DNA of 64,000 nt from Pedobacter riviphilus (lineage in GTDB: Bacteria > Bacteroidota > Bacteroidia > Sphingobacteriales > Sphingobacteriaceae), in NCBI RefSeq assembly GCF_014692875.1, contig NZ_CP061171.1:186001-250000 (forward strand), written 5' to 3'. Below are positions 9,667-56,770 of the stretch, in pieces. Position numbers and translations under genes: made by a program. The notes beneath the pieces were generated by a model. It was not told where the DNA came from and did no database searches. It saw only the letters and a program-made list of their open reading frames with translations. Every line of letters starts with the position of its first letter. Position 1 is the first letter of the stretch.

Positions 9667-11110
9667 AACCGAGGCTAGGTGACTACAGCAGTATTTCATT
9701 TTTAGGGTTGCAGGCGGCATAATCCCTTGTTTTCTAAACCCGATTGCAGCGAACACGGAGTGCAACGGAGTAAAGCGTAAAGCGGGGCTGTCGACCTCCA
9801 AGCACCACAGGCTACACATTTCCTAACCCTAAAACACTAACATCACTTGAAGCGCAATACTTGTGCAGAACAAAAAGTTCTTTCCCGTTTTGCGCTTTTA
9901 CGCTTCGCTTCCTCGTACCTCGTTGCTGCAGGGTAACGCTGCAACCAGAGCTAGGTGGGCAATACAGTATTTCATTTTTAGGGTTGCAGGCGGCATAATC
10001 CCTTGTTTTCTAAACCCGATTGCAGCGAACACGGAGTGCAACGGAGTAAAGCGTAAAGCGGGGCTGTCGACCTCCAAGCACCACAGGCTACACATTTCCT
10101 AACCCTAAAACACTAACATCACTTGAAGCGCAATACTTGTGCAGAACAAAAAGTTCTTTCCCGTTTTGCGCTTTTACGCTTCGCTTCCTCGTACCTCGTT
10201 GCTGCAGGGTAACGCTTCAACCGGGCTAAGTGGCCACAATAGTATTTCATTTGTTGGGTTGCAAAGAATACGAACCCTTATTCCTAAACCCGATTGCAGC
10301 GAACACGGAGTGTAACGGAGTAAAGCGTAAAGCGGGGCTGTCGACCTCCAAGCACCACAGGCTACACATTTCCTAACCCTAAAACACTAACATCACTTGA
10401 AGCGCAATACTTGTGCAGAACAAAAAGTTCTTTCCCGTTTTGCGCTTCGCTACCTCGTGCCTCGTTGCTGCAGGGTAACGCTGCAACCAGGGCTAGGTGG
10501 GCAATACAGTATTTCATTTGTTGGGTTGCAGGGCGCAAAACCTTTGTTTCTAAACCCGATTGCAGCGAACACGGAGTGCAACGGAGTAAAGCGTAAAGCG
10601 GGGCTGTCGACCTCCAAGCACCACAGGCTACACATTTCCTAACCCTAAAACACTAACATCACTTGAAGCGCAATACTTGTGCAGAACAAAAAGTTCTTTC
10701 CCGTTTTGCGCTTTTACGCTTCGCTTCCTCGTACCTCGTTGCTGCAGGGTAACGCTGCAACCAGAGCTAGGTGGGCAATACAGTATTTCATTTTTAGGGT
10801 TGCAGGCGGCATAATCCCTTGTTTTCTAAACCCGATTGCAGCGAACACGGAGTGCAACGGAGTAAAGCGTAAAGCGGGGCTGCAATTGCCAAGAACCACA
10901 AAGCGCTTATTTCCTAACCCTAAAACACTAACATCGCTTGAAGCGCAATACTTGTGCATAACAAAAAGTTCCTTCCCGTTTTCCGCTTTTACGCTTCGCT
11001 GCCTCGTTCCTCGTTGCTGCAGGGTAACGCTTCAACCGGGGCTAGGTGGCCACAATAGTATTTCATTTGTTGGGTTGCATGCGGCATAATCCCTTGTTTT
11101 CTAAACCCGA
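9667..11110. repeat. tandem array of about five 275-bp units of an inverted-arm intergenic repeat (locus A)
   Basis: The landmark AAACCCGATTGCAGCG recurs at 9736, 10012, 10286, 10552 and 10828, with a truncated last copy at 11103; spacing is 266-276 bp. Each full unit has a small hairpin (AGAAC-AAAAA-GTTCT, first at 9867-9881), a left arm from CCCG to GCTGCAGGG (first at 9884-9933), a centre, and a right arm (first at 9736-9789) that is roughly the reverse complement of the left arm. The array starts mid-unit and ends mid-unit. Copies are almost identical, so the expansion or homogenisation is recent. All frames read through it (for example 9863-10102, 10397-10642, 10679-11089) repeat the same translated block with no family signature and are not counted as genes. 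Confidence 0.9.
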
Positions 11111-11149
11111 TCTGATAGATATTGGTTGAGCGTGGGATATTACTAAAGC

Positions 11150-11335
11150 GTTTCGCCGTTTTTGCAGCAACCTTTGTTAAATAAACCCGGTAGGCGCGTG
11201 CATTCCGATTTAAGCACGTGTTTATGTTATACTTTGGTGTGCTTGCTTGTTTCACAGGTTTCTATCGGGATAAAGCGGATAACGGGACTGCTGCTCCCGA
11301 AGAATTACTGGACGTCCGTTTCCAAAAAAAAAAGA
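11150..11335. repeat. diverged copy of the same repeat family
   Basis: Segments such as GATAAAGCGGATAACGGGAC and the later GAAGAA ... CCGTTTCC keep the order of conserved blocks seen at the right end of the 29.7-30.3 kb units. The small frame at 11162-11347 is inside this relic and is not supported. Nothing else is seen from here to the promoter at 11490. Confidence 0.45.
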
Positions 11336-11489
11336 TATCGTAAGTAACTGCTCGTGTAGAAATACCTTTATAACTGTTTTAATCCGTTTAACTGCTAATG
11401 GCTTAACGCCAAACCCGTGGCCCGATGGTAAGGCTATAATTATATAAACATTTTCGGTAAAAGTATAACATCAGGAAAGGCCATACCGC

Positions 11490-11497
11490 TAGCTTTG
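11490..11497 (+). promoter_or_regulatory. -7 promoter element TAGCTTTG
   Basis: Exact TAnnTTTG match, 20 bp upstream of the DUF3347 gene. It would drive the two-gene copper operon. Confidence 0.45.
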
Positions 11498-11516
11498 TTT
11501 AAAATTTAAACACAAA

Positions 11517-11993
11517 ATGAAGACCTTATTTAAATTATGTGCAATCCAGGTTATTGTACTAATGATGGCTGGCGGTTTATCAGCTCAGGAAAAAGCAGCA
11601 GCGGTTAGCCCACTACAAGCTTATTACGAAGTTAAAGATGCCTTAGTTGGCAGCAATGCAAGTGTAGCTGGTACCAAGGCTACTGCATTCATTAATGCAA
11701 TAAAAGCCAACGAAAAAACCAATGCTTCGAAAGTATTGCGCGATAAAATATTATTTGATGCAGAGCACATTGCCGAGAGTAAAGATATAGAACACCAAAG
11801 AGATCATTTTACTTCTTTATCAACCGATTTTTATGCTTTGGTAAAAGCGGTAAAACTGAATGATAAGCCTGTTTATTACGCTTATTGCCCCATGAAAAAA
11901 AGCTATTGGTTAAGCGAAGGCGAGGCAATAAAGAACCCATATTATGGGAATAAAATGTTAACTTGTGGTAAGGTTGCCGAAGTGCTTAAATAA
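11517..11993 (+). CDS. DUF3347 periplasmic protein, copper-associated
   Basis: The 158-residue protein has a signal peptide (about 1-23, ending LSA/Q) and a DUF3347 domain: an alpha-helical first part (YYEVKDALVGSN) and the conserved C-terminal block YAYCPMKKSYWLS ... NPYYGNKMLTCG, whose Cys and Met residues suit soft-metal binding. DUF3347 occurs alone or attached to CusB-type efflux adaptors and is typical of copper/silver loci in Bacteroidota. It ends 16 bp before the multicopper oxidase, so the two are probably one operon, with this protein acting as a periplasmic copper binder or chaperone (inference). Confidence 0.85.
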   Translation: MKTLFKLCAIQVIVLMMAGGLSAQEKAAAVSPLQAYYEVKDALVGSNASVAGTKATAFINAIKANEKTNASKVLRDKILFDAEHIAESKDIEHQRDHFTSLSTDFYALVKAVKLNDKPVYYAYCPMKKSYWLSEGEAIKNPYYGNKMLTCGKVAEVLK

Positions 11994-12009
11994 AAACACA
12001 AGCCACAAA

Positions 12010-14301
12010 ATGAAGTTTATTTTAGTTTGTTGCCTTAGTATTTTGCTCAGTAGTTTTGCTTTTGGCCAACATCAGCACAACGAGGTAAAAGCGGCCGACC
12101 CTAAAAAAGCCCCCCAAAAAGGTAACGATTTAGAAACTTTAAGTAACAACAAGCCACCAAGGGTGGTACGTTATGATTTGTACATTGCCGATACAACGGT
12201 AACTTTTGGCGGGAAAGCTAAAAGAGCCATTGCGGTTAACGGGCAGATACCTATGCCAACGCTAACCTTTACCGAGGGCGATACAGCAGAAATACATGTG
12301 CACAACAGGCTAAAAGAATCAACTTCATTGCATTGGCATGGGCTATTTTTGCCCAATCGGTATGATGGTGTTCCGTATTTAACGCAAATGCCTATTGAAA
12401 CCAATAAAACCCATGTTTACCGTTTCCCTATTATACAGAACGGTACCCATTGGTACCATAGCCATTCGGGCCTGCAGGAGCAAATTGGGATGTATGGCGC
12501 AATGATCTTAAATAAAAGAAAAGAGCCCGCTATACCTACTGTACCTGTTGTTTTAAGTGAATGGACAAATATGATGCCCCACGAGGTGGACAGGCGATTG
12601 CACAATGCCAATGATTGGTTCGCCATAAAAAAAGGTACAACACAAAGTTATGCCGAAGCCATAAAAAGCGGACACTTTAAGACCAAGCTCACCAACGAGC
12701 TGAAACGGATGACTGCCATGGATGTGAGTGATGTGTATTATGAAGCATTTTTAGTAAACGGAAAAAATCAATATCAGGTGCCAAACCACCTCAAAGCAGG
12801 CGATAAGGTAAGGTTGCGTATTGCTAACGGAGGGGCATCTACCTATTTCTGGCTCACTTATGCTGGTGGTAAAATAACGGTAGTGGCCAATGATGGTAAC
12901 GATGTAACGCCTGTAGAAGTAGACAGGCTGATTATTGCCGTTTCCGAAACCTATGATGTAATGGTAACCATCCCCGAAAATAAAAGTTACGAGTTTTTGG
13001 TAACACCTGAAGACCGTACCAAATCGGCTTCATTATGGCTGGGTAGTGGACAAAAAGTGCCGGCTCAAAAATTGCCCAAATTGAAATATTTCGAAGGCAT
13101 GAAAATGATGAACGAAATGATGGATATGAACGGTAATCTGGTGCAGATGGAAGGCATGAAAATGCAAAATCAGGTGATGGATATGAATACCGTGATGTAT
13201 GCTGAGCTGGATGATGCGGGAGCAGATACTGTAGTTGCTGATGCCCATAAAGGCCATAATATGGGGGGTAACCATAACATGAAGGGGCCCATCAAAACAT
13301 TAAATTACGATATGTTGCGCTCGCCCGAAAAAACGGTTTTGCCTAAAGCCCCAACCCGTGAAATGGAGTTTCAGTTAACGGGCAACATGAACCGTTATGT
13401 GTGGACTTTAGATAATAAAACCATCTCTGAGGAAGATAAAATCCTCATCAAAAAGGGCGAAAACCTGCGGATCATTTTATATAACAACAGTATGATGCGC
13501 CACCCTATGCACCTGCATGGGCACGATTTTAGGGTAATTAATGGCCAGGGGGATTATGCTCCTTTAAAAAATGTACTCGATATTATGCCCATGGAGCGTG
13601 ATACGATTGAGTTCAGTGCTTCTGAAAGTGGCGACTGGTTTTTTCACTGCCATATTTTGTACCACATGATGAGTGGGATGGGTAAAATTTTCAGCTATGA
13701 AAACTCGCCGCTAAATCCCGAAATCCCAAACCCTAAACTGGCACAGCGAAAACTTTTTGCCGATGACAGGATGTTTCATTTTATGGCCGAAAATGATTTT
13801 GCCAGCAATGGAAACGACGGTATGGCCATGTTGGCCAATACACGGTGGAGTATTGGAACCGAGTGGCGCTTAGGTTATAATAAAATGCACGGCTTTGAAA
13901 CCGAAACCCATATTGGCCGGTATATAGACAGGATGCAGTGGCTAATGCCTTTTGTGGGGTTCGATTGGCGCTACCGAAAAATGGAAGTTGGCGAACAGGA
14001 AAGCAATATTTTTGGCCAAAAAAGCACCAAGGATAAAAGAAGTATGTTTAGTTTGGGGCTAGCCTATACCTTGCCTATGTTGGTAGTAGCGCAGGCAGAA
14101 GTGTACCATGATGGTAATGTGCGTTTACAGTTAATGCGCGAAGATATACCGATTTCTAAGCGATTAAGGGCTAGTTTTATGGTAAACAGCGATAAAGAAT
14201 TTATGGGCGGACTTAAATTTATTACCACAAAATACATGGGTATTTCTGCGCACTATGATAGCGATATGGGTTTTGGCGCAGGCTTAACGCTTAATTATTA
14301 A
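12010..14301 (+). CDS. multicopper oxidase (CopA/PcoA type) with C-terminal barrel-like extension
   Basis: The 763-residue protein starts at the ATG at 12010, which gives a clean signal peptide (1-20); the longer frame from 11965 overlaps the preceding gene. Cupredoxin copper sites are complete: HWHG (H108, H110), HWYHSHSG (H147, H150, H152), HPMHLHGH (about 498-505) and HCHILYHMMSGM (about 546-557). A Met/His-rich insert lies at about 363-430 (many MxxM and HxxM steps), as in copper-tolerance oxidases that oxidise Cu(I). After about residue 580 comes a 180-residue extension of alternating aromatic and polar strands (IGTEWRLGYNKM, MSMF-like steps, AGLTLNY end) that resembles CopB/PcoB outer-membrane barrels. 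It likely detoxifies periplasmic copper; the extension may anchor it to the outer membrane. Confidence 0.92.
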   Translation: MKFILVCCLSILLSSFAFGQHQHNEVKAADPKKAPQKGNDLETLSNNKPPRVVRYDLYIADTTVTFGGKAKRAIAVNGQIPMPTLTFTEGDTAEIHVHNRLKESTSLHWHGLFLPNRYDGVPYLTQMPIETNKTHVYRFPIIQNGTHWYHSHSGLQEQIGMYGAMILNKRKEPAIPTVPVVLSEWTNMMPHEVDRRLHNANDWFAIKKGTTQSYAEAIKSGHFKTKLTNELKRMTAMDVSDVYYEAFLVNGKNQYQVPNHLKAGDKVRLRIANGGASTYFWLTYAGGKITVVANDGNDVTPVEVDRLIIAVSETYDVMVTIPENKSYEFLVTPEDRTKSASLWLGSGQKVPAQKLPKLKYFEGMKMMNEMMDMNGNLVQMEGMKMQNQVMDMNTVMYAELDDAGADTVVADAHKGHNMGGNHNMKGPIKTLNYDMLRSPEKTVLPKAPTREMEFQLTGNMNRYVWTLDNKTISEEDKILIKKGENLRIILYNNSMMRHPMHLHGHDFRVINGQGDYAPLKNVLDIMPMERDTIEFSASESGDWFFHCHILYHMMSGMGKIFSYENSPLNPEIPNPKLAQRKLFADDRMFHFMAENDFASNGNDGMAMLANTRWSIGTEWRLGYNKMHGFETETHIGRYIDRMQWLMPFVGFDWRYRKMEVGEQESNIFGQKSTKDKRSMFSLGLAYTLPMLVVAQAEVYHDGNVRLQLMREDIPISKRLRASFMVNSDKEFMGGLKFITTKYMGISAHYDSDMGFGAGLTLNY

Positions 14302-14302
14302 G

Positions 14303-15262
14303 CTAACCATTGGTGATCTCCCTCAGTAACTTGTCGCATTCGGCAAAGGCATTATACAGATATTTATTGCGGTGTTTTTCGCCCTGACCGCTAAAAGAAA
14401 CTGATTTCATAATGAGGCCCTGCATCCATTGTTTGGTTTGTTTGCAATAAGCCTGGTCTTCGGTTCTTAGGTAATTAAAAGTATTAAACCTGTTGTAGCA
14501 GGCCATGCGGTCTTTAAAATCGACCAGGTAAGCGATACTTCCCAATACATCGCAATTGTACCAGTTAAAGGTATGGTTGGGGTCGATGGTTTTTTTGCTG
14601 CTAATGGCGTACATATTCATATCGGTGAGGCAATACCTTACCTGCTCTACAATTTTCACGGCCAGTTCGGTATCCGTAAGGTGCCCGGCTTCGAATGCAT
14701 ACCTGATCTGTTCGAGTGTACCTGTTACGGTATCTTTAGACCATATTTCGGTGCTTGGTATTTCCAAATATGTGGCATGCAGCTCTTGCGAAATTTTAAT
14801 AATCTCATCGGATAAGAAGGAAGAGCTGAACGGCATTTCCAGGTTGTTTGCGCTATTTGCCCAAAAGAACAGTTTAAAACTGGTGAGTTCAGGATACTTG
14901 AAAAAATGAAATAAAGGAATATCGTCAGTAGTAATGGTGATGTGTTTCTTGTTGCTGTTCTTGATGGCTTTTATATTGTCCAGTAAATTCCGGAGATAGC
15001 CAATCATATCTAAATCTTCATTTACACTTAAATAGCTAAAAGTAACCGATAACGATTGTTTCGGGCTGTACAGAAACGGGACATCAAAACAATCGGAAAG
15101 CTTGATGATCTGCTGGAAAGTAAGGTTGCTATCCCCCCTGATTTTCTTATAGGCCTCATTGGTACTTATTCCCAATTCTTCGGCTACACTCAGCGCCAGG
15201 TTCTGGTATTCGGGCAGGGCCGCTCTGATGGCCTGAAAAAATAATGCTTGCTGATTATCCAT
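14303..15262 (-). CDS. helix-turn-helix transcriptional regulator, unknown regulon
   Basis: The 319-residue protein has an N-terminal region (about 8-60) reading ALSVAEELGISTNEAYKKIRG, consistent with a Cro/cI-type HTH, followed by about 250 residues with no motif I recognise (WxxN, YLVDFKDRMACYNRF). It fits a group of long Bacteroidota regulators with an HTH head and an uncharacterised effector half. It converges on the copper oxidase with one base between stops, and it is divergent from the lipoprotein gene at 15469, which it may control. I cannot name its signal. Confidence 0.6.
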   Translation of the reverse strand: MDNQQALFFQAIRAALPEYQNLALSVAEELGISTNEAYKKIRGDSNLTFQQIIKLSDCFDVPFLYSPKQSLSVTFSYLSVNEDLDMIGYLRNLLDNIKAIKNSNKKHITITTDDIPLFHFFKYPELTSFKLFFWANSANNLEMPFSSSFLSDEIIKISQELHATYLEIPSTEIWSKDTVTGTLEQIRYAFEAGHLTDTELAVKIVEQVRYCLTDMNMYAISSKKTIDPNHTFNWYNCDVLGSIAYLVDFKDRMACYNRFNTFNYLRTEDQAYCKQTKQWMQGLIMKSVSFSGQGEKHRNKYLYNAFAECDKLLREITNG

Positions 15263-15468
15263 AAAGATTAATTTATTAATGAAATCTGAATGTTTTTAAT
15301 AATCGAATGGATTATTATCAGGTGTTAATGTAAAGAATATAATTTATAATTACATTATAGGTGTATAAATTTCTTTTAGAATTAATTTTTTTATTTGGTG
15401 TAATCTTTAAGGATAATTGAGCATTGCGGAGTGTTTTAGATTTGATAAACAATTTAAAATACATCAAA

Positions 15469-16116
15469 ATGAATATGCTAATCTCAAACTCAATTCAACC
15501 TAATGCCAACGATAATAGGCTGAATAATAACTTCCGCTGCTTTAGGCAGGCTATCTGTGTTATCACAATCTGCCTATTGTTTTCGGGCTGCGCTTCTTTT
15601 TCTGACAGGCCCATTAGGCGCCATAAGGTTAAGCTGGACAAAGACGAGGTATCAAAACTTTCAGGTACCTACCAGTTATTTCCTGATTTAACCTATAAAA
15701 AGAATGGGGTGGCCGAGACACTTAGTTATCAGCCTACAACCGAGCACTTTCATCAATATATCAGCAAACGTGGAATATATTTTAAGCCTTCTGAAAATGT
15801 GACCGTTGATGTAAAGGTGATGGACAATAACCAAATCGGTTTTCACTTTAAAAAGGACAGTATAATTGTAGATAGTGTAATTCTATCGGCCAGGCTACAA
15901 TCGAGAGGTTTACTGCTTTTAGGAAACAAGTATGTCGAATTTCAGGGTGTACCTTACATTTTAGGCGGTTCAAAAAGTGAGAAGACACGGATTGGACTGG
16001 CTAGCGATGGGGGACTTATTTTAAATCATGCCTACGACAATTCTGGTGCGCTTTTACTGCTTATCGGTGCAGGTCTTTCTTACGATTCTGCTTATCATTT
16101 TAAAAGAATTAAATAA
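15469..16116 (+). CDS. exported lipoprotein, unknown function
   Basis: The start at ATG 15469 is preferred over the upstream GTG at 15424. The 215-residue product has an N-terminal polar tail, a hydrophobic stretch and a lipobox (LFSGC), so it should be lipidated and envelope-anchored. The body has no family signature that I recognise; beta-rich segments (FHFKKDSIIVDSVILSARL) suggest a small beta-fold. It is followed after 7 bp by a small outer-membrane-like protein and then by another, forming a three-gene cluster. The divergent HTH gene could be its regulator. Confidence 0.7.
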   Translation: MNMLISNSIQPNANDNRLNNNFRCFRQAICVITICLLFSGCASFSDRPIRRHKVKLDKDEVSKLSGTYQLFPDLTYKKNGVAETLSYQPTTEHFHQYISKRGIYFKPSENVTVDVKVMDNNQIGFHFKKDSIIVDSVILSARLQSRGLLLLGNKYVEFQGVPYILGGSKSEKTRIGLASDGGLILNHAYDNSGALLLLIGAGLSYDSAYHFKRIK

Positions 16117-16123
16117 TACAGCT

Positions 16124-16674
16124 ATGAAAAAGATTATTTTATTATCGGTTTTAACCTTGTTGGGCAATGTTGTTAAAGCGCAAAGAAATGTTGATGATTT
16201 TTTTAATCCACTAAGTTTTGGTCTCGAATTGGGTGCTGCAACCTTACAAAAACCCTTGGTTTCGGGCTTTATCGCATACAACAAACCGGGTTCTTACCTT
16301 AAGTTTAAAATATCTTCTGTAATGCAGGAGAGCTATGAAGTGAATGTAAATGGAGAAGAAACAACTATGCCGGGTTTTTCTGAAGTAGCACTGATGTTAG
16401 GTAGGCGGGTTAAGATCAATTCCAATCATAGGTTTGAATTTGGTGGGGGTGTAGCACTAATTGCAGATCTGAAAAAGTACGATGAGTCGAATAGTGATAC
16501 CAAAAGGGATAAAATTATACAAAAAACTCGGTGGGACTTGTTGCTGAAGCCAAGTATATATTCCGTTTTGTTGATGGTGTAGGAATTTCTTTATCAGTGA
16601 ATGGCAATGCAAACAGGCAAAAAACTTTTGCAACGGCAGGTTTAGGTGTGGTATTTGGTTCCAAAATGCTTTAA
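16124..16674 (+). pseudogene. small outer-membrane beta-barrel-like protein, frameshifted
   Basis: The frame from ATG 16124 has a signal peptide (ending VVKA/Q) and barrel-like strands, but runs to a premature end at 16582 in sequence that no longer looks like a barrel. In the next frame the reading VGLVAEAKYIFRF ... GLGVVFGSKML continues to 16674 and supplies the missing final strands. The switch falls at an A6 run (16521-16526); one more A restores a 183-residue protein. This is either a sequencing deletion, a contingency tract or a recent mutation. The next gene starts 4 bp after the restored stop, as expected of an operon. Confidence 0.75.
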
Positions 16675-16678
16675 TAAT

Positions 16679-17257
16679 ATGCAAAAACATGTTTTAACCT
16701 TATTACTCGTTTGCATTAACGTTTTTGTTTTTGCACAGCAGGATACCTTACATAAAAATCATCGATTTTATTATGGCATAGGTTTGAGCGGAGGTAAGGG
16801 TACTGAAGATGGCGGCTACGGTGAGCTTCATATTTATTTGCAGCGTAAAACCAATTATATCGCATTTAAATCATCAGGTATTTCGAAATTCGAGCTTTTT
16901 GGCGATGAGCCTAATCCCAGCATTTCTGATGTTGGGATTATTGTGGGTAAAAGCTATAGTTTCGATCGCTATTTCAACCTGAAGTTTGGTGCAGGGCTGG
17001 CATTTACGGAGCAGATATCAAGAGGCGCATTTTTGTACAATACCTGCAAGTCTATGTTTTGCCTGCTCGATCATGATGTTTATGAAACTATTGCCACCCG
17101 AACGATCGGTGTTCCATTAGAAGTAAAGACCAGTTTTTTAGTTGGGAGGGCTGCAGCGTTAACCATTGGGATAAGTGCAAATCTAAATGGCGCTAAGAAC
17201 TTTTGTGGATTTTCAGTTGGTGTTACATTAGGGCGTTTGAGAGATAGGGCGAGGTGA
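16679..17257 (+). CDS. small outer-membrane beta-barrel-like protein, unknown function
   Basis: The start at ATG 16679 gives a 192-residue protein with a signal peptide (ending VFA/Q) and a run of amphipathic strands (RFYYGIGLSGGKG, NLKFGAGLAFTE, GFSVGVTLGRL). Three cysteines (two in NTCKSMFCL, one in NFCGF) could form a disulfide in the periplasm. It resembles the preceding gene in design, so the pair may be paralogues. Function is not recognised. 17258-17445 holds no gene. Confidence 0.7.
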   Translation: MQKHVLTLLLVCINVFVFAQQDTLHKNHRFYYGIGLSGGKGTEDGGYGELHIYLQRKTNYIAFKSSGISKFELFGDEPNPSISDVGIIVGKSYSFDRYFNLKFGAGLAFTEQISRGAFLYNTCKSMFCLLDHDVYETIATRTIGVPLEVKTSFLVGRAAALTIGISANLNGAKNFCGFSVGVTLGRLRDRAR

Positions 17258-17445
17258 TCTGGATTATCACATTCACTCATTCTTGCATTTAGAAATTCTG
17301 CTGGATTTTTAATTAATGGCACAGCCTTTTATTGTAAACCTGATGGGAACGGTAGCCCGAGCTTTTTCTGCGAGGCTATAGTGTACAGCAGGGCAGAAAT
17401 TTTTGCTTGCACTAACCTCTGTTTTCCAAACAGAATAAAAAGGAA

Positions 17446-18630: not shown

Positions 18631-18778
18631 AGTACCCTTAGTGTTAAAATTACACTATGCAAAGGTAAGGCTTTTTTTGGTAGGGGATTGTAAAAATTAG
18701 GCCATTTATAGGTGAGGGGAAATGTGGGGGTGGCATATAATGTGGAATATGTGATAGGATGATTCACTGCTAAATTTC

Positions 18779-19541
18779 TTCATTTCCTAATCACTTAAAT
18801 TCGATTGTTTTGTGTTTACAGGCCAGCCGAAAGAAATTGCTTCGCCGTTCCTCGCAATTGACGAAATACAATCGGATTCAGGTTATACTAAGATACTTTT
18901 CGCATTTGGAGCGCAAGGCCTGTACTAAAGAATAAATTTCTTCCCGTTTTACGCTTTTACGCTTCGCTTCCTCGTACCTCGTTGCTGCAGGGTAGACGCT
19001 TCAACCGGGGCTAGATGGCCAGTGCGGTATTTTATTTGTGGGGTTACAGGGTGCACAAACCCTTGTTTCTAAACCAGATTGAGCGGAATAGCCCGGAGCG
19101 CAGCGAGGACTATAAGCGAAAGCGGGGCTACAAAATGCCAAGAACCACAGACCGCTCATTTCCTGATCACCTAAATTCGATTGTTTTTATACGTCCCTAG
19201 ATCCTCCATCTTATTTTTTTGATTTGGAGCGCAAGGCCTGTACTAAAGAATAAATTTCTTCCCGTTTTGCGCTTTTACGCTTCGCTTCCTCGTACCTCGT
19301 CGCTGCAGGGTAGGCGCTTCAACCGGGGCTAGATGGCCAGTGCGGTATTTTATTTGTGGGGTTGCAGGGTGCACAAACCCTTGTTTCTAAACCAGATTGA
19401 GCGGAATAGCCCGGAGCGCAGCGAGGACTATAAGCGAAAGCGGGGCTACAAAATGCCAAGAACCACAGACCGCTCATTTCCTGATCACCTAAATCCGATT
19501 GTTTTTATACGTCCCTAGATCCTCCATCTTATTTTTTGATT
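18779..19541. repeat. two tandem 317-bp units of the interspersed repeat plus a partial third (locus B)
   Basis: Units begin at ATTTGGAGCGCAAGGCC (18905 and 19222) and end with CCTCCATCTTATTTTTTGA. A truncated unit end (CATTTCCTAATCACTTAAAT) lies at about 18782. Each unit has a hairpin AAGAA-TAAAT-TTCTT (18928-18942), a left arm, a centre with CTTCAACCGGGGCTAGATGG, and a right arm ending AAGCGAAAGCGGGGC. The two units are almost identical, yet differ clearly from locus A. At 18829-18870 another small dispersed repeat (GAAATTGCTTCG ... CTCGCAATT) interrupts. Frames at 19015-19200 and 19333-19518 are the same repeat read twice and are not genes. Confidence 0.88.
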
Positions 19542-19549
19542 TTTCAAAA

Positions 19550-19585
19550 AAAAAGCTTGTCCCACCCTGTGGAACAAGCTTTTTT
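19550..19585 (-). terminator. intrinsic terminator of the sigma factor operon
   Basis: AAAAAGCTTGT and ACAAGCTTTTT form the stem, extended by CCAC/GTGG around a short loop. Read on the minus strand it ends in a run of nine T, directly after the 66-residue gene. Confidence 0.85.
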
Positions 19586-19601
19586 GCTCATGTAAAATTT
19601 A

Positions 19602-19802: not shown

Positions 19803-19884
19803 CTAAATGTGATAAGTTTTATTAACTTAACGATAGTTCAGATGCTTTATTTCAAGCCCTAAAAAAAAATATGTAACATTTATG

Positions 19885-20663: not shown

Positions 20664-20671
20664 TATTTTTG
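20664..20671 (+). promoter_or_regulatory. -7 promoter element TATTTTTG for uvrA
   Basis: Exact TAnnTTTG match 58 bp before the uvrA start, in the AT-rich divergent region shared with the sigma factor gene. Confidence 0.4.
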
Positions 20672-23543: not shown

Positions 23544-23551
23544 TTTCGGCA

Positions 23552-29647: not shown

Positions 29648-30352
29648 GTTTAGTCGGTGAAACACCAACCGATAGGATAAATTAAAAAGCACCAATTTCA
29701 TTTGGAGCGCAGGGCCTGTACTGAACAGGAAATTTCCTCCCGTCTTCCGCTTTTACGCTTCGCTTCCTCGTGCCTCGTCGCTGCAGGGTAACGCTTCAAC
29801 CGGGGCTAATAGGTCAAGGCGGTTTTTCATTTGTGAGGTTGCGGGGTGCATAACCCATTGTTCCTAAACCCGATTGCAATGCAAAGCCCGAAAGCGAGGA
29901 ACGAGTGCGGACTTGAAATGGAAAGCGGGACTGCAAACCGCCAAGAACCACAAGCCCTCCATTTCCTAATTTCAATATACAAACAATTGCGTTTTCGGTC
30001 GGTGAGACACCAACCGATAGAATAAGCTTATATTTGGAGCGCAAGATCTGTGCTAAACAGGAAGTTTCCTCCCGTCTTTTGCTTTACGCTTCGCTTCCTC
30101 GTACCTCGTCGCTGCAGGGTAACGCTTCAACCGGGGCTAATAGGTTAAGGTAGTTTTTCATTTGTGAGGTTGCAGTGTGCACAAGCCGTAGCTTATAAAC
30201 CCGATTGCAATGCAAAGCCCGAAAGCGAGGAACGAGTGCGGACTTGAAATGGAAGGCGGGACTGCAAACCGCCAAGAACCACAAGCCCTCCATTTCCTAA
30301 TTTCAATATACAAACAATTGCGTTTTCGGTCGGTGAGACACCAACCGATAGA
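29648..30352. repeat. two tandem 332-bp units of the interspersed repeat bounded by 22-bp direct repeats (locus C)
   Basis: Unit landmarks ATTTGGAGCGCA lie at 29700 and 30032. A short hairpin direct repeat, GTCGGTG-A/G-ACACCAACCGATAG, occurs three times (about 29652, 30000 and 30331), before, between and after the units. Each unit has a perfect or near-perfect hairpin (AGGAA-AT-TTCCT at 29727-29738; AGGAA-GT-TTCCT in the second), a left arm, a centre and a right arm ending GGCGGGACTGCAAACCGCC. Frames at 29814-30044, 30084-30293 and 30210-30419 are reads of this repeat and are not genes. Confidence 0.88.
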
Positions 30353-48634: not shown

Positions 48635-48644
48635 CGGAAACAAA

Positions 48645-50405
48645 ATGAAAAAGATTTTAACCATATTATTTACAATTGCAGTAGTTACGGGTTGTAAAAA
48701 AGATTTATTAACAACTACACCTCCTTCGCAAGTTGCATCAGAAATGATGTGGACAACTGATAACCTAACCGACCAGGGAATGACCGGTGTTTATGCCACT
48801 TTAAGATACGGCATGGCATCAGGTGGTGCCTCAGGTTTAGAATTGTATCAAATGGATTGTTTAGGTTTTACCGGACAAACTTCGGGTGCAGAGTCTTTGT
48901 TGTCAGGAACAATAACCCCGAGTAATGGCTATTTCAGTGGGCACTGGCAAAACCTTTACGAAGGTATTCAGCGTGCAAATGATGCATTAAAAAACATTGC
49001 ATTAAAATCGCCTTCTTCTCCTGAGAAAAAAGCAAGGTACATTGCTGAAGCAAAATTTTTAAGGGCTTATTTTTATTTAAGGTTAAATCAATTGTATAAA
49101 GGCGTACCCATTTATTTAGAGCCTTATCTTCCTGAAGAAGCATTTAAACCACGTTCTACAGAAGCAGAAGTTTGGGCTCAGGTAATCAGTGATTTAACTG
49201 CTGCAATTGCGGAACCAAACCTACCTGATAGATATGCTAGTGGTAATGGAAATTATGGTCATGTTACTAAGGGTGCAGCTTATGCTTTACGTGGCAAAGC
49301 CTATATGTATACGCAAAAGTGGGATTTAGCCACAGCAGATTTTCAAAAAGTTAAAGATGCTGGTTATGGTTTGTTTGCAAATTATAGCGCATTGTTTAAA
49401 ACTGCTAACGAACAATCTAACGAAATGATTTTCTCTATTCAGAATATTGGAGTTACTGGTTTTGGTTCAACTACGCAATTTTATTGCGGTACCCGTTCTT
49501 CTTTTGGCTCTTGCTGGAATACTTATCATGTTTCTCCAAACCTGGTAGATTTATATGAAAACGCTGATGGCTCTAAATTTAACTGGGATGCTGTTATACC
49601 TGGATATTCGGCACTTTCTGTAGCAGAACGAGAGGTTTACTTTTTAAGAAACAACCTAACAGCAGCCGAAATTGCAGCAGCCACTACAAGAGGTGCAAAA
49701 ATGAGTTTGTATTTACCAACAGGTAACGAAGCACGTATTATGCAGGCTTATGCTAACCGCGATCCTCGATTGGCTGCAAACGTAATTACACCATACTCAA
49801 CTTATTTGGGGGTATTTGGCGGAGCAAATGCAGTGGTAACCTCAAGATGGCCTTATCGTGCTGAAGGCGCTACGAATGGTGATTTGCGTACAGATACACA
49901 AAGCCTATTCTATTATTTATACCGTAAATATGTTTACGAAGGTGCAACAGAAACACCTGGCAGAGATTATGGACCAACAGATTTTGTATTGATTAGATAC
50001 GCAGATGTGTTGTTAATGTGGGCAGAAGCGCTGAATGAACAAGGTTTAACTTCTGAGGCAATCGCTAAAGTAAATGAAGTAAGAACGCGTGCTGGTGTAG
50101 CTTTACTTCAAAATGCCAACGCGGTATTGCCAACATTTGTATCTGATCAAACAGATTTAAGAGAAAGGATCCGCAATGAAAGAAGAGTAGAGTTTCCTAA
50201 TGAAGGTATTAACTTCTTTGATGAAATGAGATGGAAGAGCTGGAAAGACAAAGTTTTTTATGCAGGTAACGGTGTAAAACAGGCTTGGGGCAAAGTTGTA
50301 TATGCCTACTCATTTAAGGGTGATTATCTTTATAATTGGGCAATTCCAGCTGTAGAGATAGAAAGAAACCCCAGCCTGACTCAAAATGCAGGTTGGATAA
50401 ATTAG
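48645..50405 (+). CDS. SusD/RagB-family outer-membrane lipoprotein
   Basis: The start at ATG 48645 gives a 586-residue lipoprotein with lipobox VVTGC; the longer frame from 48621 overlaps susC. SusD blocks include NLYEGIQRANDALKNIA, AEAKFLRAYFYLRLNQLYKGVPI, VLIRYADVLLMWAEALNEQG and RNERRVEFPNEGINFFDEMRW. It binds the glycan and caps the SusC partner. The stop is followed by a strong hairpin and then a terminator-like element, which should lower transcription of the enzyme genes below it. Confidence 0.95.
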   Translation: MKKILTILFTIAVVTGCKKDLLTTTPPSQVASEMMWTTDNLTDQGMTGVYATLRYGMASGGASGLELYQMDCLGFTGQTSGAESLLSGTITPSNGYFSGHWQNLYEGIQRANDALKNIALKSPSSPEKKARYIAEAKFLRAYFYLRLNQLYKGVPIYLEPYLPEEAFKPRSTEAEVWAQVISDLTAAIAEPNLPDRYASGNGNYGHVTKGAAYALRGKAYMYTQKWDLATADFQKVKDAGYGLFANYSALFKTANEQSNEMIFSIQNIGVTGFGSTTQFYCGTRSSFGSCWNTYHVSPNLVDLYENADGSKFNWDAVIPGYSALSVAEREVYFLRNNLTAAEIAAATTRGAKMSLYLPTGNEARIMQAYANRDPRLAANVITPYSTYLGVFGGANAVVTSRWPYRAEGATNGDLRTDTQSLFYYLYRKYVYEGATETPGRDYGPTDFVLIRYADVLLMWAEALNEQGLTSEAIAKVNEVRTRAGVALLQNANAVLPTFVSDQTDLRERIRNERRVEFPNEGINFFDEMRWKSWKDKVFYAGNGVKQAWGKVVYAYSFKGDYLYNWAIPAVEIERNPSLTQNAGWIN

Positions 50406-50424
50406 ATTGTTGGCAGGATTAGTT

Positions 50425-50450
50425 CTGGCCGCTATTACGATAGCGGCCAG
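50425..50450 (+). promoter_or_regulatory. 11-bp perfect stem-loop with TACG tetraloop after susD
   Basis: CTGGCCGCTAT and ATAGCGGCCAG enclose TACG, a stable UNCG-family loop in RNA. No T-run follows, so it is better seen as a 3'-end protecting or processing hairpin than as a terminator. Confidence 0.6.
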
Positions 50451-50540
50451 TTAATGATGAATTTCTATGACTCCAGGCTAATAAACATAAAGAAACATCA
50501 GTTCGATCTGGTAAAAAAATGGTTAGTATTGTTAGTTTGG

Positions 50541-50568
50541 GCCACTTTGCCTAGCTTGGTGGCTTTTT
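50541..50568 (+). terminator. weak intrinsic terminator between susD and the GH95-like gene
   Basis: GCCAC pairs with GTGGC, followed by TTTTT. The stem is short, so partial read-through to the enzyme genes is likely. Confidence 0.5.
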
Positions 50569-50604
50569 AACTCCCTTATTACCAATTAAAAATAATTGAA
50601 AATT

Positions 50605-52899
50605 ATGCAGCGTCATAGCTCATTAAAGTATTGCAGAATAATCATTAATTACAGCCTGTTACTCCTGTTTTCGTTGTTGCCGCGTTGGTGTACTGCTCAA
50701 ATACCAGCTGGCGAAGTAAACTGGTCGGTATTTATGGCCCGGCAAAATTTAAAGTGGGATAATCTTGGCAAAGATTATTATAGTGGTATTATCTTGGGTA
50801 ACGGGCTGCTCGGTACCAATATTTACAAAGAAAACGACAGTTTAATCCGTTTCGATATCGGTAGGAGCGATGTAGTGGATCATCGGGAGAAACTAATGCC
50901 CTATGCTGGTAAATTATATACCCAATCGCGTTTGCCAATTGGGTATTTTACGCTTAAAACTGAGGGTAAAATAACAGGAGCCAAAATAGAACTCGATATT
51001 TACAATGCCGAAGCGAAAGGCAGCATATCTACTACACAGGGAACAATCTCCTTTACCGCCTTTGTTGCGGCCAATCAAAATGTAATTAGTATTTCGTTTA
51101 ATGCAACACAGCAAGAAAAAGTTTTAGCATGGAAATGGAACCCTGGTAAAAGTATCAGTCCGAGGTATCTTCAGGCCTATCCGACAGATAAACCTGCAAA
51201 CTATCAGGAAAATCCTCCTGTAAAAATGACGACAGAAAGTGGTTATACTGTTTGTCATCAACCCTTATTTAATAACGGTGGTTATAGCACAGCCTATCAA
51301 ATTAATGGCAATGCCAGTTCGGGCAAACTGCGCGTAAGTGTGGGCTATGATGGGTATAATAACCTCGATGAAACCAAAGAAGCCTTAAATAGCCTTAAAA
51401 ATTTTAAGTCAGACGAGGAAAGTATTGCAGCACACCGCAATTGGTGGCACAGCTATTATCAGCAGAGCTTTGTTGCCCTGCCCGATAAACGCATGGAGAA
51501 TTTTTATTGGATACAACTTTATAAACTCGCCTCTGTTACCCGGGCAGATAAACCTATTGCCGACTTAATGGGGCCTTGGACAGCGGCTACCCCATGGCCA
51601 GCCATCTGGTGGAATTTAAACGCCCAGCTTACCTATTCTCCAATTTTTACGGCCAACCATTTAGAACTCGGCGAATCGCTGTTTAAGTCTTTAAATGTTC
51701 ACCGGCAAAATTTAATCAATAATGTTCCTGCACAATGGCGTAATGATGCTGCGGCTATAGGAAGAAGCTCTTCTTACGATCTGGTAAGTCCGATAACCGA
51801 AGCAGAGATAAACAAGGGGGCTTTTGAGCCTGCCAACCTTACCTGGATGTTATACTATTATTATCAATATTATAGCTATACCAAAGATGAGCAGACCCTC
51901 CGTACTAAAATTTATCCTTTACTGAAAAGATCTGCAAATTTTTTAATCCATCAGCTTAAGCAAGATGAGAAGGGGATTTATCATTTTCCAATGTCTTATT
52001 CACCAGAGTACAAAAATGCAGAAGATGCAAATTATACCTTAGCGAGTTTAAACTGGGCCCTTCAAACTTTAATTAAAGTAAATAAAACGCAACAATTAAA
52101 AGATGCAGATGCCAGTAACTGGGATCTGATATTGAAAAACCTAGCACCTTTTCCGGTTGGAGATACTGGTTTTTTAATCGGCAAAGATGTGCCATTAAAT
52201 AGCTCGCACAGGCATTATTCACATTTACTGATGATTTACCCTTATCGCCTGGTAAATTGGGAACAACCAGAAAATAAGGAGCTGGTCAGCCTGTCTTTAA
52301 AAAACTGGCTTTCGTATAAAAATGCGCTTGCAGGATTTTCTTTTAGTGGGGCTGCTTCTATTTATGCAGGTATGGAAAACGGTGATATGGCTTACCAATG
52401 GTTAAATGAACTGTTCGATCGTTTTGTGCAGGCCAATACCCTGTACCGCGAATCAGGTCCGGTAATCGAAACACCTTTGGCAGCAGCAACCTCAATACAA
52501 GAAATGCTGATCCAAAGCTGGGGAGATAAAATCAGGATTTTTCCTGCCATTCCATCCAGCTGGAAAAACGTATCGTTTAAGCAACTTAGGGCAGAAGGTG
52601 CTTTTTTGGTCAGTGCTGATATGCAAAACGGGCAGACAAAAAATATTAAAATAAGAAGTTTAAAGGGAGGAGACTTAACACTGGTAAGCACGCTCGATAA
52701 ATTTTCCATCAGATCGGATAAGCGGAGCAAAATAGATTATCAACAGTATAAAGAAGGTGAAAAAATCAAAATTGAAATTAAAAATACCATAATCGGAGAA
52801 ACCATACAGCTCGTTTCTACTTTCTTTGAAGAAAAAAAAGTGCCAGGCTTCCCTTATAGTGAATACCAGAACTGGTTTTGGGGCTTAAATAAAAAATAA
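50605..52899 (+). CDS. GH95-like (alpha/alpha)6-barrel glycoside hydrolase, divergent
   Basis: ATG 50605 is preferred to TTG 50596; product 764 residues with signal peptide (about 1-32). The N-terminal beta-domain has LGNGLLG (65-70). The helical barrel carries GH95-like landmarks: an N-x-N pair (N337, N339 in WWNLNAQ), SPE with E468, and HRHYSHLLMIYP (about 535-546). GH95 enzymes are alpha-1,2-L-fucosidases or alpha-L-galactosidases. The usual late D-x-N-F-G block seems replaced by ETPLA (622-626), so the acid/base arrangement and specificity may differ. It follows susCD and directly precedes the PL8 lyase (2-bp gap), so it likely trims a side group of the same polymer. Confidence 0.75.
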   Translation: MQRHSSLKYCRIIINYSLLLLFSLLPRWCTAQIPAGEVNWSVFMARQNLKWDNLGKDYYSGIILGNGLLGTNIYKENDSLIRFDIGRSDVVDHREKLMPYAGKLYTQSRLPIGYFTLKTEGKITGAKIELDIYNAEAKGSISTTQGTISFTAFVAANQNVISISFNATQQEKVLAWKWNPGKSISPRYLQAYPTDKPANYQENPPVKMTTESGYTVCHQPLFNNGGYSTAYQINGNASSGKLRVSVGYDGYNNLDETKEALNSLKNFKSDEESIAAHRNWWHSYYQQSFVALPDKRMENFYWIQLYKLASVTRADKPIADLMGPWTAATPWPAIWWNLNAQLTYSPIFTANHLELGESLFKSLNVHRQNLINNVPAQWRNDAAAIGRSSSYDLVSPITEAEINKGAFEPANLTWMLYYYYQYYSYTKDEQTLRTKIYPLLKRSANFLIHQLKQDEKGIYHFPMSYSPEYKNAEDANYTLASLNWALQTLIKVNKTQQLKDADASNWDLILKNLAPFPVGDTGFLIGKDVPLNSSHRHYSHLLMIYPYRLVNWEQPENKELVSLSLKNWLSYKNALAGFSFSGAASIYAGMENGDMAYQWLNELFDRFVQANTLYRESGPVIETPLAAATSIQEMLIQSWGDKIRIFPAIPSSWKNVSFKQLRAEGAFLVSADMQNGQTKNIKIRSLKGGDLTLVSTLDKFSIRSDKRSKIDYQQYKEGEKIKIEIKNTIIGETIQLVSTFFEEKKVPGFPYSEYQNWFWGLNKK

Positions 52900-52901
52900 A
52901 G

Positions 52902-55019
52902 ATGTTTGCCATAAATAAAAAAACAAACAATAAAATAAAGGTTCACCGAAAAATTAGATTTGGATTTCTGTTGGGCAGTTTAATGCTGATGAGTGTAGCA
53001 GCAAAAGCCCAAAAAGAACCCTTTAATACCGTTCTGCAACGTATTAATAACGATTTGCAGGCTTTTGTTAAAGATAAGGTGCTGAGTGATAAAATTGCCA
53101 ATAATCTTAAAAACCTGAATGCCGATGGCAGTTGGGCCGATATCAATTATAATGATGCACAATACGATCCGCTAAAGCGCATTAAAGATATGGTAACAGC
53201 CTATATCCGTCCGTCCAATAAGCTCTATCAAAACACCCAACTCTATGGTTCAATTGTTAAATCCCTCCAAAACTGGTTGGATAAGAACCCAAAGAACAAG
53301 AATTGGTGGTATAATGACATTTTTTATCCGCAAGCTATTGGAGAAACCTTAATATTAATGCGGAATGCCAAAACACAGCTTCCCGCCGATTTGGAAAATG
53401 CATTGATCAAAAGAATGATCAGGCGTTTAAAAACGGGTGATGGGGCGAATACTTCAGATGAAGCTTTACATTATCTCTATAGGGCATGTTTAACACAGAA
53501 CAAAGCAACTTTAGATTCTGCCGCGAAATACCTGTTCGAGCCTATAGCCATTGCCGATGGAAAAGAAGGTGTCCAGATAGATGGGAGTTATTACCAGCAT
53601 GGAAAACAACAGGCCATTGCCAGTTATGGAAGGGTGTTTGCCGGAAATTCGGTTAATGCGGCTTTCTATTTACGTGGAACCGAATACGCCTTGCCTAAAG
53701 ATCAGCTAGCAATTTTGGTTAATTATCTTAAAAATACTTTCCTGAAGACGGTGAGAGGATCATTTTATGATTTCAATGTGCGCGGCCGTGGAATTAGCCG
53801 TAAAGACTCCTTAAGTAGTGGTATTGGAAGTATGGTAAGCAAGATTAAACTGTTCGATCCTGAAAATGCTGCCTACTGGGATGCTTCGCTAATGCGAACA
53901 TCAGGCAAAAAAGCAGTTGACTATGGTATTACAGCTTCCCATAGCCAATATTGGAAAAGTGGGTATACCCTTCACCTGCGTAAGGCTTATACTTTTAGCG
54001 TGCAGACTGCATCGACCAGGACTTTGCGAACTGAGCGGGGCAACAACGAAAATATACTGGGGAAATTTCTCTCTGATGGGGCAACTAATATTCAGCGTAG
54101 CGGATCAGAATACGCCAACCTGATGCCGGTTTGGGAATGGGATAAAATTCCAGGAACTACCAGTAGGGATTATCCGGATGATAATGGTGCAACTATTAAA
54201 AGTGATTGGGGAATACCTGGTACAACCCAATTTGTGGGTGGCGTTAGCGATGGTGTTTATGGCGTTTCTTGTTACGATTTAAATTACGACAGCGTTCAGG
54301 CAAAAAAGGCCTGGTTCTTTTTCGATAAGGAAGTGGTGTGCCTGGGTGCTGGAATTAAGAGCAGCACAAAAGAAAATATTACCACAACAATTAATCAGAC
54401 CTGGTTAAGGGGCCGCGTGTTTTCTTCAAATGGAGCACAGAAAAATGATAAAGGCGAGATTTGGGCAATCCACGATAGTATTGGGTATGTTTTTCCTCAA
54501 GGCGGAGATTTAGAAATCAGCAACAAAGTACAAACCGGAAACTGGTACCGCATTAATCATTTTCAAAGTAAAACCGAACTAAAACATGATGTATTTAAAA
54601 TTTGGTTAAATCACGGTGTAAATCCCCAAAATGCCTGTTATCAATACATTGTTGTGCCTGGTGTTGATGTTGCGGGCTTAAAAAAATACAACCGATCGAT
54701 GATACAGATATTAAAAAATACGGAAGAACTGCAGGCTGTAAAACATACCGGGCTAAACATGTTACAGGCTGTATTTTATAAAGCGGGAACACTGGCGGCC
54801 GATGGTCTTTCGCTTCAGGTAGATCAGCCGTGTACGGTTTACATTAAAGATTTAAGCAGTAAAAACCCTATACTATATATTGCAGATCCAGCACAGGCCA
54901 ATACAAACATCAAGGTGCTTTTAAAGTTGCCGGCCATGTCAAAAACCCAAAATATAAATTGTAACCTACCTGCCGGAGCACTTTCGGGAGCTACGGCAAA
55001 CTTTAAAATCAAAGAATAA
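52902..55019 (+). CDS. polysaccharide lyase family 8 (chondroitin AC/hyaluronan lyase type)
   Basis: The 705-residue exported protein (signal peptide after a basic head, ending AKA/Q at about 37) cleaves uronic-acid polymers by beta-elimination, giving unsaturated oligosaccharides. Length and full-length resemblance fit Pedobacter chondroitin AC lyase (about 700 residues; from memory). Catalytic positions are present: N183 in GDGANTSD, H233 in YYQHG, Y242 in ASYG, and arginines 296/300 in NVRGRGISR. The C-terminal beta-domains include MPVWEWDKIPGTTSRDYP and GGVSDGVYGVSCYDLNYDS. Substrate could be chondroitin, hyaluronan or a related polymer; the lack of sulfatases nearby favours a non-sulfated one. 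Confidence 0.93.
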   Translation: MFAINKKTNNKIKVHRKIRFGFLLGSLMLMSVAAKAQKEPFNTVLQRINNDLQAFVKDKVLSDKIANNLKNLNADGSWADINYNDAQYDPLKRIKDMVTAYIRPSNKLYQNTQLYGSIVKSLQNWLDKNPKNKNWWYNDIFYPQAIGETLILMRNAKTQLPADLENALIKRMIRRLKTGDGANTSDEALHYLYRACLTQNKATLDSAAKYLFEPIAIADGKEGVQIDGSYYQHGKQQAIASYGRVFAGNSVNAAFYLRGTEYALPKDQLAILVNYLKNTFLKTVRGSFYDFNVRGRGISRKDSLSSGIGSMVSKIKLFDPENAAYWDASLMRTSGKKAVDYGITASHSQYWKSGYTLHLRKAYTFSVQTASTRTLRTERGNNENILGKFLSDGATNIQRSGSEYANLMPVWEWDKIPGTTSRDYPDDNGATIKSDWGIPGTTQFVGGVSDGVYGVSCYDLNYDSVQAKKAWFFFDKEVVCLGAGIKSSTKENITTTINQTWLRGRVFSSNGAQKNDKGEIWAIHDSIGYVFPQGGDLEISNKVQTGNWYRINHFQSKTELKHDVFKIWLNHGVNPQNACYQYIVVPGVDVAGLKKYNRSMIQILKNTEELQAVKHTGLNMLQAVFYKAGTLAADGLSLQVDQPCTVYIKDLSSKNPILYIADPAQANTNIKVLLKLPAMSKTQNINCNLPAGALSGATANFKIKE

Positions 55020-55039
55020 TATACACGTACTATTACATT

Positions 55040-56224
55040 ATGAAAAAAATCAACCTCGCTGTCGCATTACTGATATTAGGCAGTTCAATTTCATCTGCCC
55101 AAACCACCAAGAAGCCAATGGCGCAGTTAATTAACGATGAATTTAAATTCGCGGCCGACCAATATAAAATACTTGCTAAAAATATACCTGAAGGTAAAAC
55201 ACCCCAAAGTTTCGAAAAAGGTAAATCTGTCAACTACGATATTAAGTGGTGGTGCAGTGGCTTTTATTCGGGCAGTTTGTGGTACATATACGAGCAAACT
55301 AAAGATCAGAATATTAAAAAAGAGGCAGAAGCAGCCTTAAAAGTAATAGAACCGAACCAAACCTATACCGGAAACCACGATTTAGGTTTTATGATGTACT
55401 GCAGCTTTGGCAATGCTTACCGTTTAACGGGCAAAGCAGAATATAAAGCAGTCATTCAGCGTTCGGCAGAATCTTTAGCAACGCGCTATCGCCCGGTTGT
55501 AAAATCAATCCAATCGTGGAACAAAAGCAAAATGTGGGAGTGCCCGGTAATTATTGATAATATGATGAATCTTGAAATGATGAACTGGGCAAGCGATAAT
55601 GGAGGAGATAAAAAATATAAAGAAATTGCTGTTACACATGCCAACACTACTTTAAAAAACCATTTCCGCCCCGATTTTAGTTCTTTTCATGTGGTAGATT
55701 ATAATCCGCAGACGGGTGAGGTGATTAAAAAAGCTACCTGGCAGGGCGCCGCAAATTGCTCTGCATGGGCGCGTGGGCAGGGTTGGGCTTTGTACGGTTA
55801 CACCATGATGTACCGTTTTACCAAAGATGAAACCTATTTAAAACAGGCCAAAGGTATTGCACACTTTATATTGAACCATCCAAATTTACCTGCCGATAAA
55901 ATACCATTCTGGGATTTCGATGCCCAGGGGATCCCATTTGCAAAACGGGATGCTTCTGCAGGTGCGTTAATGGCTTCGGCATTATTAGAGCTTGGCCAGT
56001 ATACATCTGGAAGTGAAAAAACAGAATTCAAATCTGCAGCCGAAACCATGATCTATTCGCTTTCGAGCAATGCCTATCATGCAAAATTAGGTGAAAATGG
56101 AGGTTTTTTATTGATGCACAGCACCGGTGCCTACCCATTAAACAGCGAAATAGATGTACCATTAATTTATGCTGATTATTATTATTTGGAAGCATTGGCC
56201 AGGTATAAAAAATGGTATTTATAG
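55040..56224 (+). CDS. GH88 unsaturated glucuronyl hydrolase
   Basis: The 394-residue protein has a signal peptide (about 1-20, ending SSA/Q), so it is probably periplasmic. It removes the 4,5-unsaturated uronate that PL8 leaves at the non-reducing end. Two catalytic-type aspartates fit the family: D114 in NHDLGFM and D173 in VIIDNMMNL. Other landmarks are the (alpha/alpha)6 segments KWWCSGFYSGSLWYIYE and SAWARGQGWALYGYTMMYR. It lies 20 bp after the lyase, in one operon. The product spontaneously yields the KduI substrate. Confidence 0.94.
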   Translation: MKKINLAVALLILGSSISSAQTTKKPMAQLINDEFKFAADQYKILAKNIPEGKTPQSFEKGKSVNYDIKWWCSGFYSGSLWYIYEQTKDQNIKKEAEAALKVIEPNQTYTGNHDLGFMMYCSFGNAYRLTGKAEYKAVIQRSAESLATRYRPVVKSIQSWNKSKMWECPVIIDNMMNLEMMNWASDNGGDKKYKEIAVTHANTTLKNHFRPDFSSFHVVDYNPQTGEVIKKATWQGAANCSAWARGQGWALYGYTMMYRFTKDETYLKQAKGIAHFILNHPNLPADKIPFWDFDAQGIPFAKRDASAGALMASALLELGQYTSGSEKTEFKSAAETMIYSLSSNAYHAKLGENGGFLLMHSTGAYPLNSEIDVPLIYADYYYLEALARYKKWYL

Positions 56225-56261
56225 AAAATATTAAATTGGAAATGAGGGTTCTTAGTGTTTG

Positions 56262-56770
56262 AGAAACAGCAGTCCCCTTATCCGTTTTATCCAGATAGAA
56301 AAAAACGGGATGCATGCTACTACCGGGTTTATGAACAGTGTTTTGTACAAAGACTGCCAAAAATTAATGTTGTTGCTTAGGCACCCAGCCATTAATATTA
56401 AGATATGCCGTGCCACCTAGACCCGATTGGAGTGGACATCCTGATCCTTCATCAGGATAAAACGGAAAGCGGGAAGAAACCTGAATCGTAGTACAGAAAC
56501 CTGCTCTCCAAATAATTAAAAATAACTTGAGTTTTGGTGTAAACTTGCATCATAAAGAAAATGAAATATAAACCTTTGTTTATTCTGGAAATGAACGTTC
56601 AGTGATGCTTCGGAAACCGTAGCCCCGTTATTCGCTATAGCTCCGATGAACTATCGGAGGCTGCCGCTACTACCGGGTTTACGAACAACTGTTTGTGCAA
56701 AAGAATACAGATCGCCAATCTGGTAAAATAGGAACAGAAGAAACCTGCGCTCCAAATAATTTAGAATAAC
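56262..56770. repeat. two diverged inverted-orientation units of the interspersed repeat (locus D)
   Basis: Read on the minus strand, the two units start with ATTTGGAG(C/A)GCAGG (complement of 56495-56515 and 56740-56760) and show TTTCTTCCCGCTTTCCG and CAATCGGG blocks in the family order. They lie between GH88 and the DUF2264 gene, inside the utilisation locus, and may split the transcript. No gene is seen in 56225-56799. Confidence 0.6.

Follow-up and report, generated by a model that had tools for sequence, protein, structure and literature searches.

What are the tandem, non-coding repeats that recur at four places, loci A to D, in a 64,000-nucleotide stretch of the Pedobacter riviphilus genome (NZ_CP061171.1, positions 186,001 to 250,000; hereafter the window)? 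A first-pass annotation had named three readings (structured RNA, MITE-like element, recombination substrate), among which mobile palindromic DNA is now the best supported. We consider it most likely, with moderate confidence, that the repeats are a REPIN-like orphan element that moves as single-stranded DNA and is built from modules of the Rfam family Flavo-1. The repeat unit would then be a miniature, non-autonomous mobile DNA element consisting of two inverted Flavo-1 modules.

Family identity and folding of the repeat arms

The first-pass annotation knew of no named family that fits the repeats, but Flavo-1 (RF01705) does: both arms of each repeat unit are copies of it, the right arm on the plus strand and the left arm on the minus strand. 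The curated cut-off of 42 bits is reached by one of the 12 matches in the window, at locus D (56415-56480, +; 45.7 bits). The 11 others, obtained at a relaxed threshold, lie under it at 25.4-37.4 bits (29862-29936, +, and 18936-19016, -, are examples) and share the base pairs of the family. With R1, a covariance model built from 38 arms (alignment A2), a scan at E<=1 located 23 arms in the window: 11 at locus A, four each at loci B and C, three at locus D, and a single arm missing from the earlier annotation (17327-17427, +; 51.9 bits with R1, 37.4 bits with the Rfam model).

Locus A (9667-11323, both strands) is an array of 11 alternating arms, recognized by R1, by the direct repeats D1-D3 and by sub-threshold Rfam matches. 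Its plus-strand arms, as placed by R1, are found at 9727-9823, 10003-10099, 10277-10373, 10543-10639, 10819-10914 and 11174-11323, and its minus-strand arms at 9848-9961, 10124-10237, 10398-10503, 10664-10777 and 10939-11052; the array is tandem, as had been described, and extends past the end at 11110 given for it. R1 resolves locus B (18907-19481, both strands) into two doublets, 18907-19021 (-) with 19062-19163 (+) and 19225-19339 (-) with 19380-19481 (+). Locus C (29703-30297, both strands; R1 and sequence) likewise comprises two doublets, 29703-29816 (-) with 29857-29966 (+) and 30035-30147 (-) with 30188-30297 (+), and here host flank has been carried along in the tandem copy. At these three loci the repeats are tandem and non-coding, with start-to-start spacings of 266-276, 318 and 331 nt, and follow the block order reported earlier. 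Locus D (56237-56689) has the same arms according to R1, yet as a divergent -,+,- set: 56237-56339 (-), 56410-56510 (+) and 56587-56689 (-). A 24-bp inter-unit stretch is common to locus A and an array at 5.13 Mb. Duplication in tandem of a doublet together with its flank is probably how arrays grow.

A shorter hairpin repeat, GGTCGGTGAGACACCAACCGATAG, stands beside locus C at about 29653-29676, 29995-30020 and 30327-30351, and recurs to either side of a divergent RAYT gene (L151). Because it is common to both places, locus C seems to house a second repeat family too, of classical REP-like type.

Each arm has the Flavo-1 hairpin (Weinberg et al. 2010, PMC2864571), including its mismatched internal loops; the 76 positions of the Rfam model, filed as an sRNA, omit the tip and the paired inverted layout described below. 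Covariation in this hairpin is strong. In alignment A2, 91.9% of the paired cells can pair against 73.1% after shuffling, with 111 two-sided changes against 29.8; for 150 copies from the genome (the best of 228), in an alignment fitted to R1 itself, the figures are 87.9% against 66.8% and 458 against 132. Folding energy tells otherwise. When nine window arms were folded as single-stranded DNA, one had a z of -3.05 and eight ranged from -0.71 to +2.11, and the single whole doublet that was folded (29697-29974) gave +1.22 relative to shuffled sequence. The helices are short and split by conserved mismatched loops, which may explain energies no better than shuffled. The first-pass annotation would have abandoned its proposal if the arms paired no better than shuffled sequence; this is what folding energy indicates, and covariation indicates the opposite. 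The asymmetry between G-U and A-C pairs was tried as a means of telling RNA from DNA and dropped as non-discriminating, the TPP riboswitch control also having few G-U pairs. In several arms (L009, L012, L049, L062, L065) a second repeat, CATCCTGAGCG..GTCGAAGG, sits in the apical loop, which looks as though a further palindrome had entered the tip of the hairpin.

Could Flavo-1 be a structured RNA, either an sRNA or a leader, that is multi-copy by chance? The covariation would suit such an RNA, and so would the filing of the family: it is marked 'RNA? y' in PMC2864571 and classed by Rfam as Gene; sRNA. A review takes it up in its section on the most abundant bacterial sRNAs (PMC9029176). In Flavobacterium psychrophilum, according to the passage on Flavo-1 in PMC9723704, some matches coincide with 5' transcribed regions, but matches are indistinctly sense or antisense and many correspond to no transcribed region. 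Moreover, single arms between co-directional genes show no strand preference in our genome (21 with the gene strand, 15 against it), and inverted doublets would give a sense plus an antisense transcript. We therefore regard the RNA explanation as unlikely. In the text of the open-licence literature searched we found no treatment of Flavo-1 as mobile DNA; if the mobile reading is true, annotation would have to be corrected across Bacteroidota.

Layout in the genome and presence in relatives

Among the 150 of 1385 first-look candidates that were scored, at least 97 in the P. riviphilus genome match RF01705 at E<=1e-3, 44 of them over the cut-off. R1 found 228 arms in 1,602,898 bases from 81 sources (1.6 Mb, 27% of the genome), most of which were chosen around known matches; seven stretches picked blind (L279-L285, 140 kb) contained five arms, all within two of the stretches. 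When arms within 400 bp of each other are joined, 119 clusters result: 65 single arms, 22 '-+', four '+-', two '++' and two '--' pairs, and 24 clusters with three or more arms, which mostly alternate in strand. The repeats had been called always tandem, which is true of the four loci in the window but not genome-wide, as the single arms demonstrate. Adjacent arms are inverted in 97 of 109 pairs, and the '-+' spacer has its mode at 39-41 nt. Relative to random placement in extragenic space, single arms are too few (65 vs 158.7 expected), two-arm clusters number 30 vs 25.6, and larger clusters are in excess (24 vs about 5.5; with five or more arms, 8 vs 0.2). The arms are spread over intergenic space in both orientations, and none of the 119 clusters in the sampled 1.6 Mb falls within an ORF of at least 90 aa, with ORFs called by a simple longest-first rule.

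This layout resembles that of REPINs or BIMEs, which in the account of Bertels and Rainey 2011 (PMC3116915) are likewise extragenic, of high copy number and arranged as inverted doublets with a preferred spacer, and form tandem clusters that include flanking sequence. Flavo-1 doublets are extragenic, inverted, over-represented and of fixed spacing in the manner of REPINs; near-identical arms, doublets more conserved than singlets and a cognate RAYT gene flanked by the repeat were not found. It counts against the REPIN-like reading that single arms have no replication-strand bias (33 vs 32), which targeting of the lagging strand would give.

Convergent genes flank 33 of 118 clusters; among 652 intergenic gaps with a length of 100 bp or more, 120 lie between such genes. 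Such an excess would be in keeping with bidirectional terminators or stabilisers of mRNA 3' ends that are kept by the host, like domesticated REP sequences. We find this quite improbable, as 22 of the 118 clusters lie between divergent genes, presence varies between species (see below) and single arms fold no more strongly than shuffled sequence.

Dispersed doublets (spacers of 36-48 nt) mostly start with TGGAGCGCA or TGAAGCGCA and end with CATTTCC or CTTTCCA. These ends are sharp and common to the doublets and the flanks outside them are unrelated, apart from those inside arrays and those that locus A shares with the 5.13 Mb array. Common inverted ends would also be expected of MITEs mobilised by a DDE transposase, with ATTTGGA.../...TCCTAAT as their imperfect terminal inverted repeats. 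To this explanation we give little credence: no target-site duplication was seen by eye at the dispersed doublets inspected, the ends of single arms differ, and the coupling of foot and tip described in the next section is not known as a feature of DDE ends.

The comparison with relatives shows presence and absence between species. The genes flanking locus B were found together in 29 relatives, of which 28 are armless between them and one (G047) has an arm; a stretch of G251 with four arms (L204) failed the anchor test and is not one of the 29. At locus A, one of six anchored relatives has arms and five have none, and at locus C arms are present in four of six and absent in two. The single arm at 17327 is present at the matching place in G111 and absent in G194, and in one further region, searched in 12 relatives, the elements are mostly common to them. 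Because intergenic flanks diverge between relatives, the empty sites are approximate and not base-precise. With up to 22 candidates scored per genome, 57 of 75 genomes of the genus and 134 of 201 of the order have Flavo-1 matches; in the phylum 44 of 296 genomes have them.

A near-identical single Flavo-1 variant occurs in two other genera (L325 in g12, L328 in g2). The genes around it presumably include a conjugative-transposon topoisomerase and RteC, which they resemble, and such a conjugative-transposon-like context might carry the variant from one genus to another.

Coupling of foot and tip, and unlike arms within doublets

Each module has a foot (mostly TAAA or TAGC), a bulged hairpin, a linker of ~31 nt and a tip (mostly TTTYC or GCTYC). 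In 115 non-redundant arms, drawn from the best 150 of the genome, the foot/tip triplets are AAA/TTT (50), AGC/GCT (27), AAA/ATT (19), AAA/GTT (6), AGA/TCT (4) and others (9). Foot and tip are exact reverse complements in 82 of the 115, against 41.4 under shuffling (sd 3.8; 0 of 5000 shuffles as high). Relatives gave 75 matches, of which 59 are full-length; among the 47 non-redundant arms of this full-length set, 34 have such complements, against 16.9 (again 0 of 5000). The shuffling leaves relatedness between arms in place. R1 contains no pairs at the foot and tip columns. In a FastTree phylogeny of 162 arms, built with foot and tip excluded, the foot changes 17 times, the tip 17 times and the joint state 19 times, so that about 15 changes coincide, in a tree that rests on short sequences and in which recombination between copies could mimic repeated change. 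Mixed clades with support >=0.85 number 11, some being mixed only via one odd foot (TAG, AGA). In f20, a family of the same class, AGC occurs with GCTYC in 20 of 20 copies, taken from two genomes among the 24 top-scoring matches listed, at +4/5 from the hairpin in 14 and at +31/32 in six. In a further variant, inspected by eye, GCGTG faces CACGC and GCATG faces CATGC.

Guide and site that co-vary, as foot and tip do here, are characteristic of IS200/IS605-type elements. At the ends of these elements and in TnpA-REP substrates, as outlined in the relevant part of PMC6006769, an imperfect hairpin has at its 5' foot a short guide that matches a short site beyond the hairpin; Flavo-1 differs in the simple reverse-complement relation of foot and tip, in having no strand bias and in that no transposase was found for it. 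This resemblance leads us to the reading as a REPIN-like element of single-stranded DNA. By analogy with Y1/HUH enzymes (IS200/IS605, TnpA-REP), the foot would act as guide by pairing with the tip in single-stranded DNA, the tip would be the cleavage site, and an enzyme acting in trans would cut and move the unit. If the repeats were a structured RNA, the same pairing would be a closing helix, and it could indeed belong to RNA. A 3-bp helix closing a bulge of 31 nt probably adds little stability, from which we infer that recognition by a protein is favoured. The coupling defines a substrate that could be tested directly in a search for the enzyme.

The foot also sets Flavo-1 apart from REP sequences: GTAG or GTGG of the REP type (PMC3116915) is absent beside the 5' foot, which is TAAA or TAGC, and NYAG before the stem on the other strand is conserved only in part. 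In addition, Flavo-1 arms measure ~100 nt instead of ~20-40 nt, and the two arms of a doublet differ instead of matching. For the first-pass annotation left and right arms were partly complementary, which is correct in so far as they are inverted homologues; arms of the same doublet are less alike than shuffled partners (identity 0.522 vs 0.550, sd 0.010, p=0.0018; 45 non-redundant doublets). The dissimilarity is seen in the first 28 nt (p=0.0002) and the last 60 nt (p=0.0008), is not significant in the apical part (p=0.145) and holds in a stricter set of 33 doublets (p=0.011). AGC/AGC doublets do not occur where 5.2 are expected (P=0.0004; 54 doublets with both feet typed, array copies counted), and the 45 non-redundant doublets divide into 21 AAA/AGC, 16 AAA/AAA, no AGC/AGC and 8 mixed or untyped. 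Mean pairwise identity across loci is 0.52 in single arms, left arms and right arms alike, and pairs at >=0.85 identity amount to 77 of 3660 in doublets vs 5 of 2080 in singles, array copies included.

The coupling of the foot and tip triplets and the unlike arms of doublets are new observations on this family. A rule against like-with-like arms is not known for palindromic repeats; the unlike arms may mean that long palindromes are avoided or that two different ends are required. It is possible, and we suggest it tentatively, that Flavo-1 is a mobile class of single-stranded DNA of its own, with AAA/AGC heterodimers, a 3-nt guide that has repeatedly been re-coded jointly with the tip and a non-RAYT mover not yet recognised.

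Candidate movers

Against a mobile element stand the diversity of the arms, which is unlike the REPIN pattern, the folding energies and the fact that no enzyme was found. The earlier statement that no transposase is nearby is borne out for the part of the genome that was sampled, where no gene family shows a convincing enrichment around the elements (the best, 4 of 4 near with an uncorrected p of 0.009, is no transposase), and the units contain no genes, Y1 transposase included.

Could the elements instead be the cognate REPs of resident RAYTs, of group 5 / subclass 2.6 or of a divergent type? At the level of the genus the two go together, a RAYT profile (E<=1e-10) being found in 51 of the 57 genomes positive for Flavo-1 against 1 of the 18 negative ones (p=5.5e-11, kinship ignored). 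Atypical repeats near subclass 2.6 TnpAREP genes of Bacteroidetes, reported in the section of PMC6006769 on that subclass, share with Flavo-1 the phylum, unusual structures and copies elsewhere in the genome. Yet the co-occurrence is unspecific, because IS200-like Y1 transposases behave in the same way (38 of 57 vs 0 of 18) and the genomes negative for Flavo-1 seem to be relatives of one another. The P. riviphilus genome has three RAYT genes (NF047646) and two divergent ones, and all five are flanked by other hairpin repeats as judged by eye, so that each RAYT seems to have its own repeat; one of the five has a Flavo-1 arm about 0.9 kb away. An arm lies within about 1.5 kb at 2 of 82 RAYT/Y1 loci, some of which overlap, no Rfam Flavo-1 match was obtained in 14 such loci, and no RAYT was found near f20 copies in ten 10-kb stretches. 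A resident RAYT was thus rejected as the mover, its co-occurrence being unspecific and the flank tests having failed, and we judge it very improbable that the elements are RAYT-cognate REPs. In G005, a Flavo-1-rich genome with 21 or more matches, no Y1_Tnp or RAYT match was found, which makes it a promising place to look for the enzyme. Another divergent RAYT gene (L150) sits between CGGTCTGTG...CACAGACCG hairpins.
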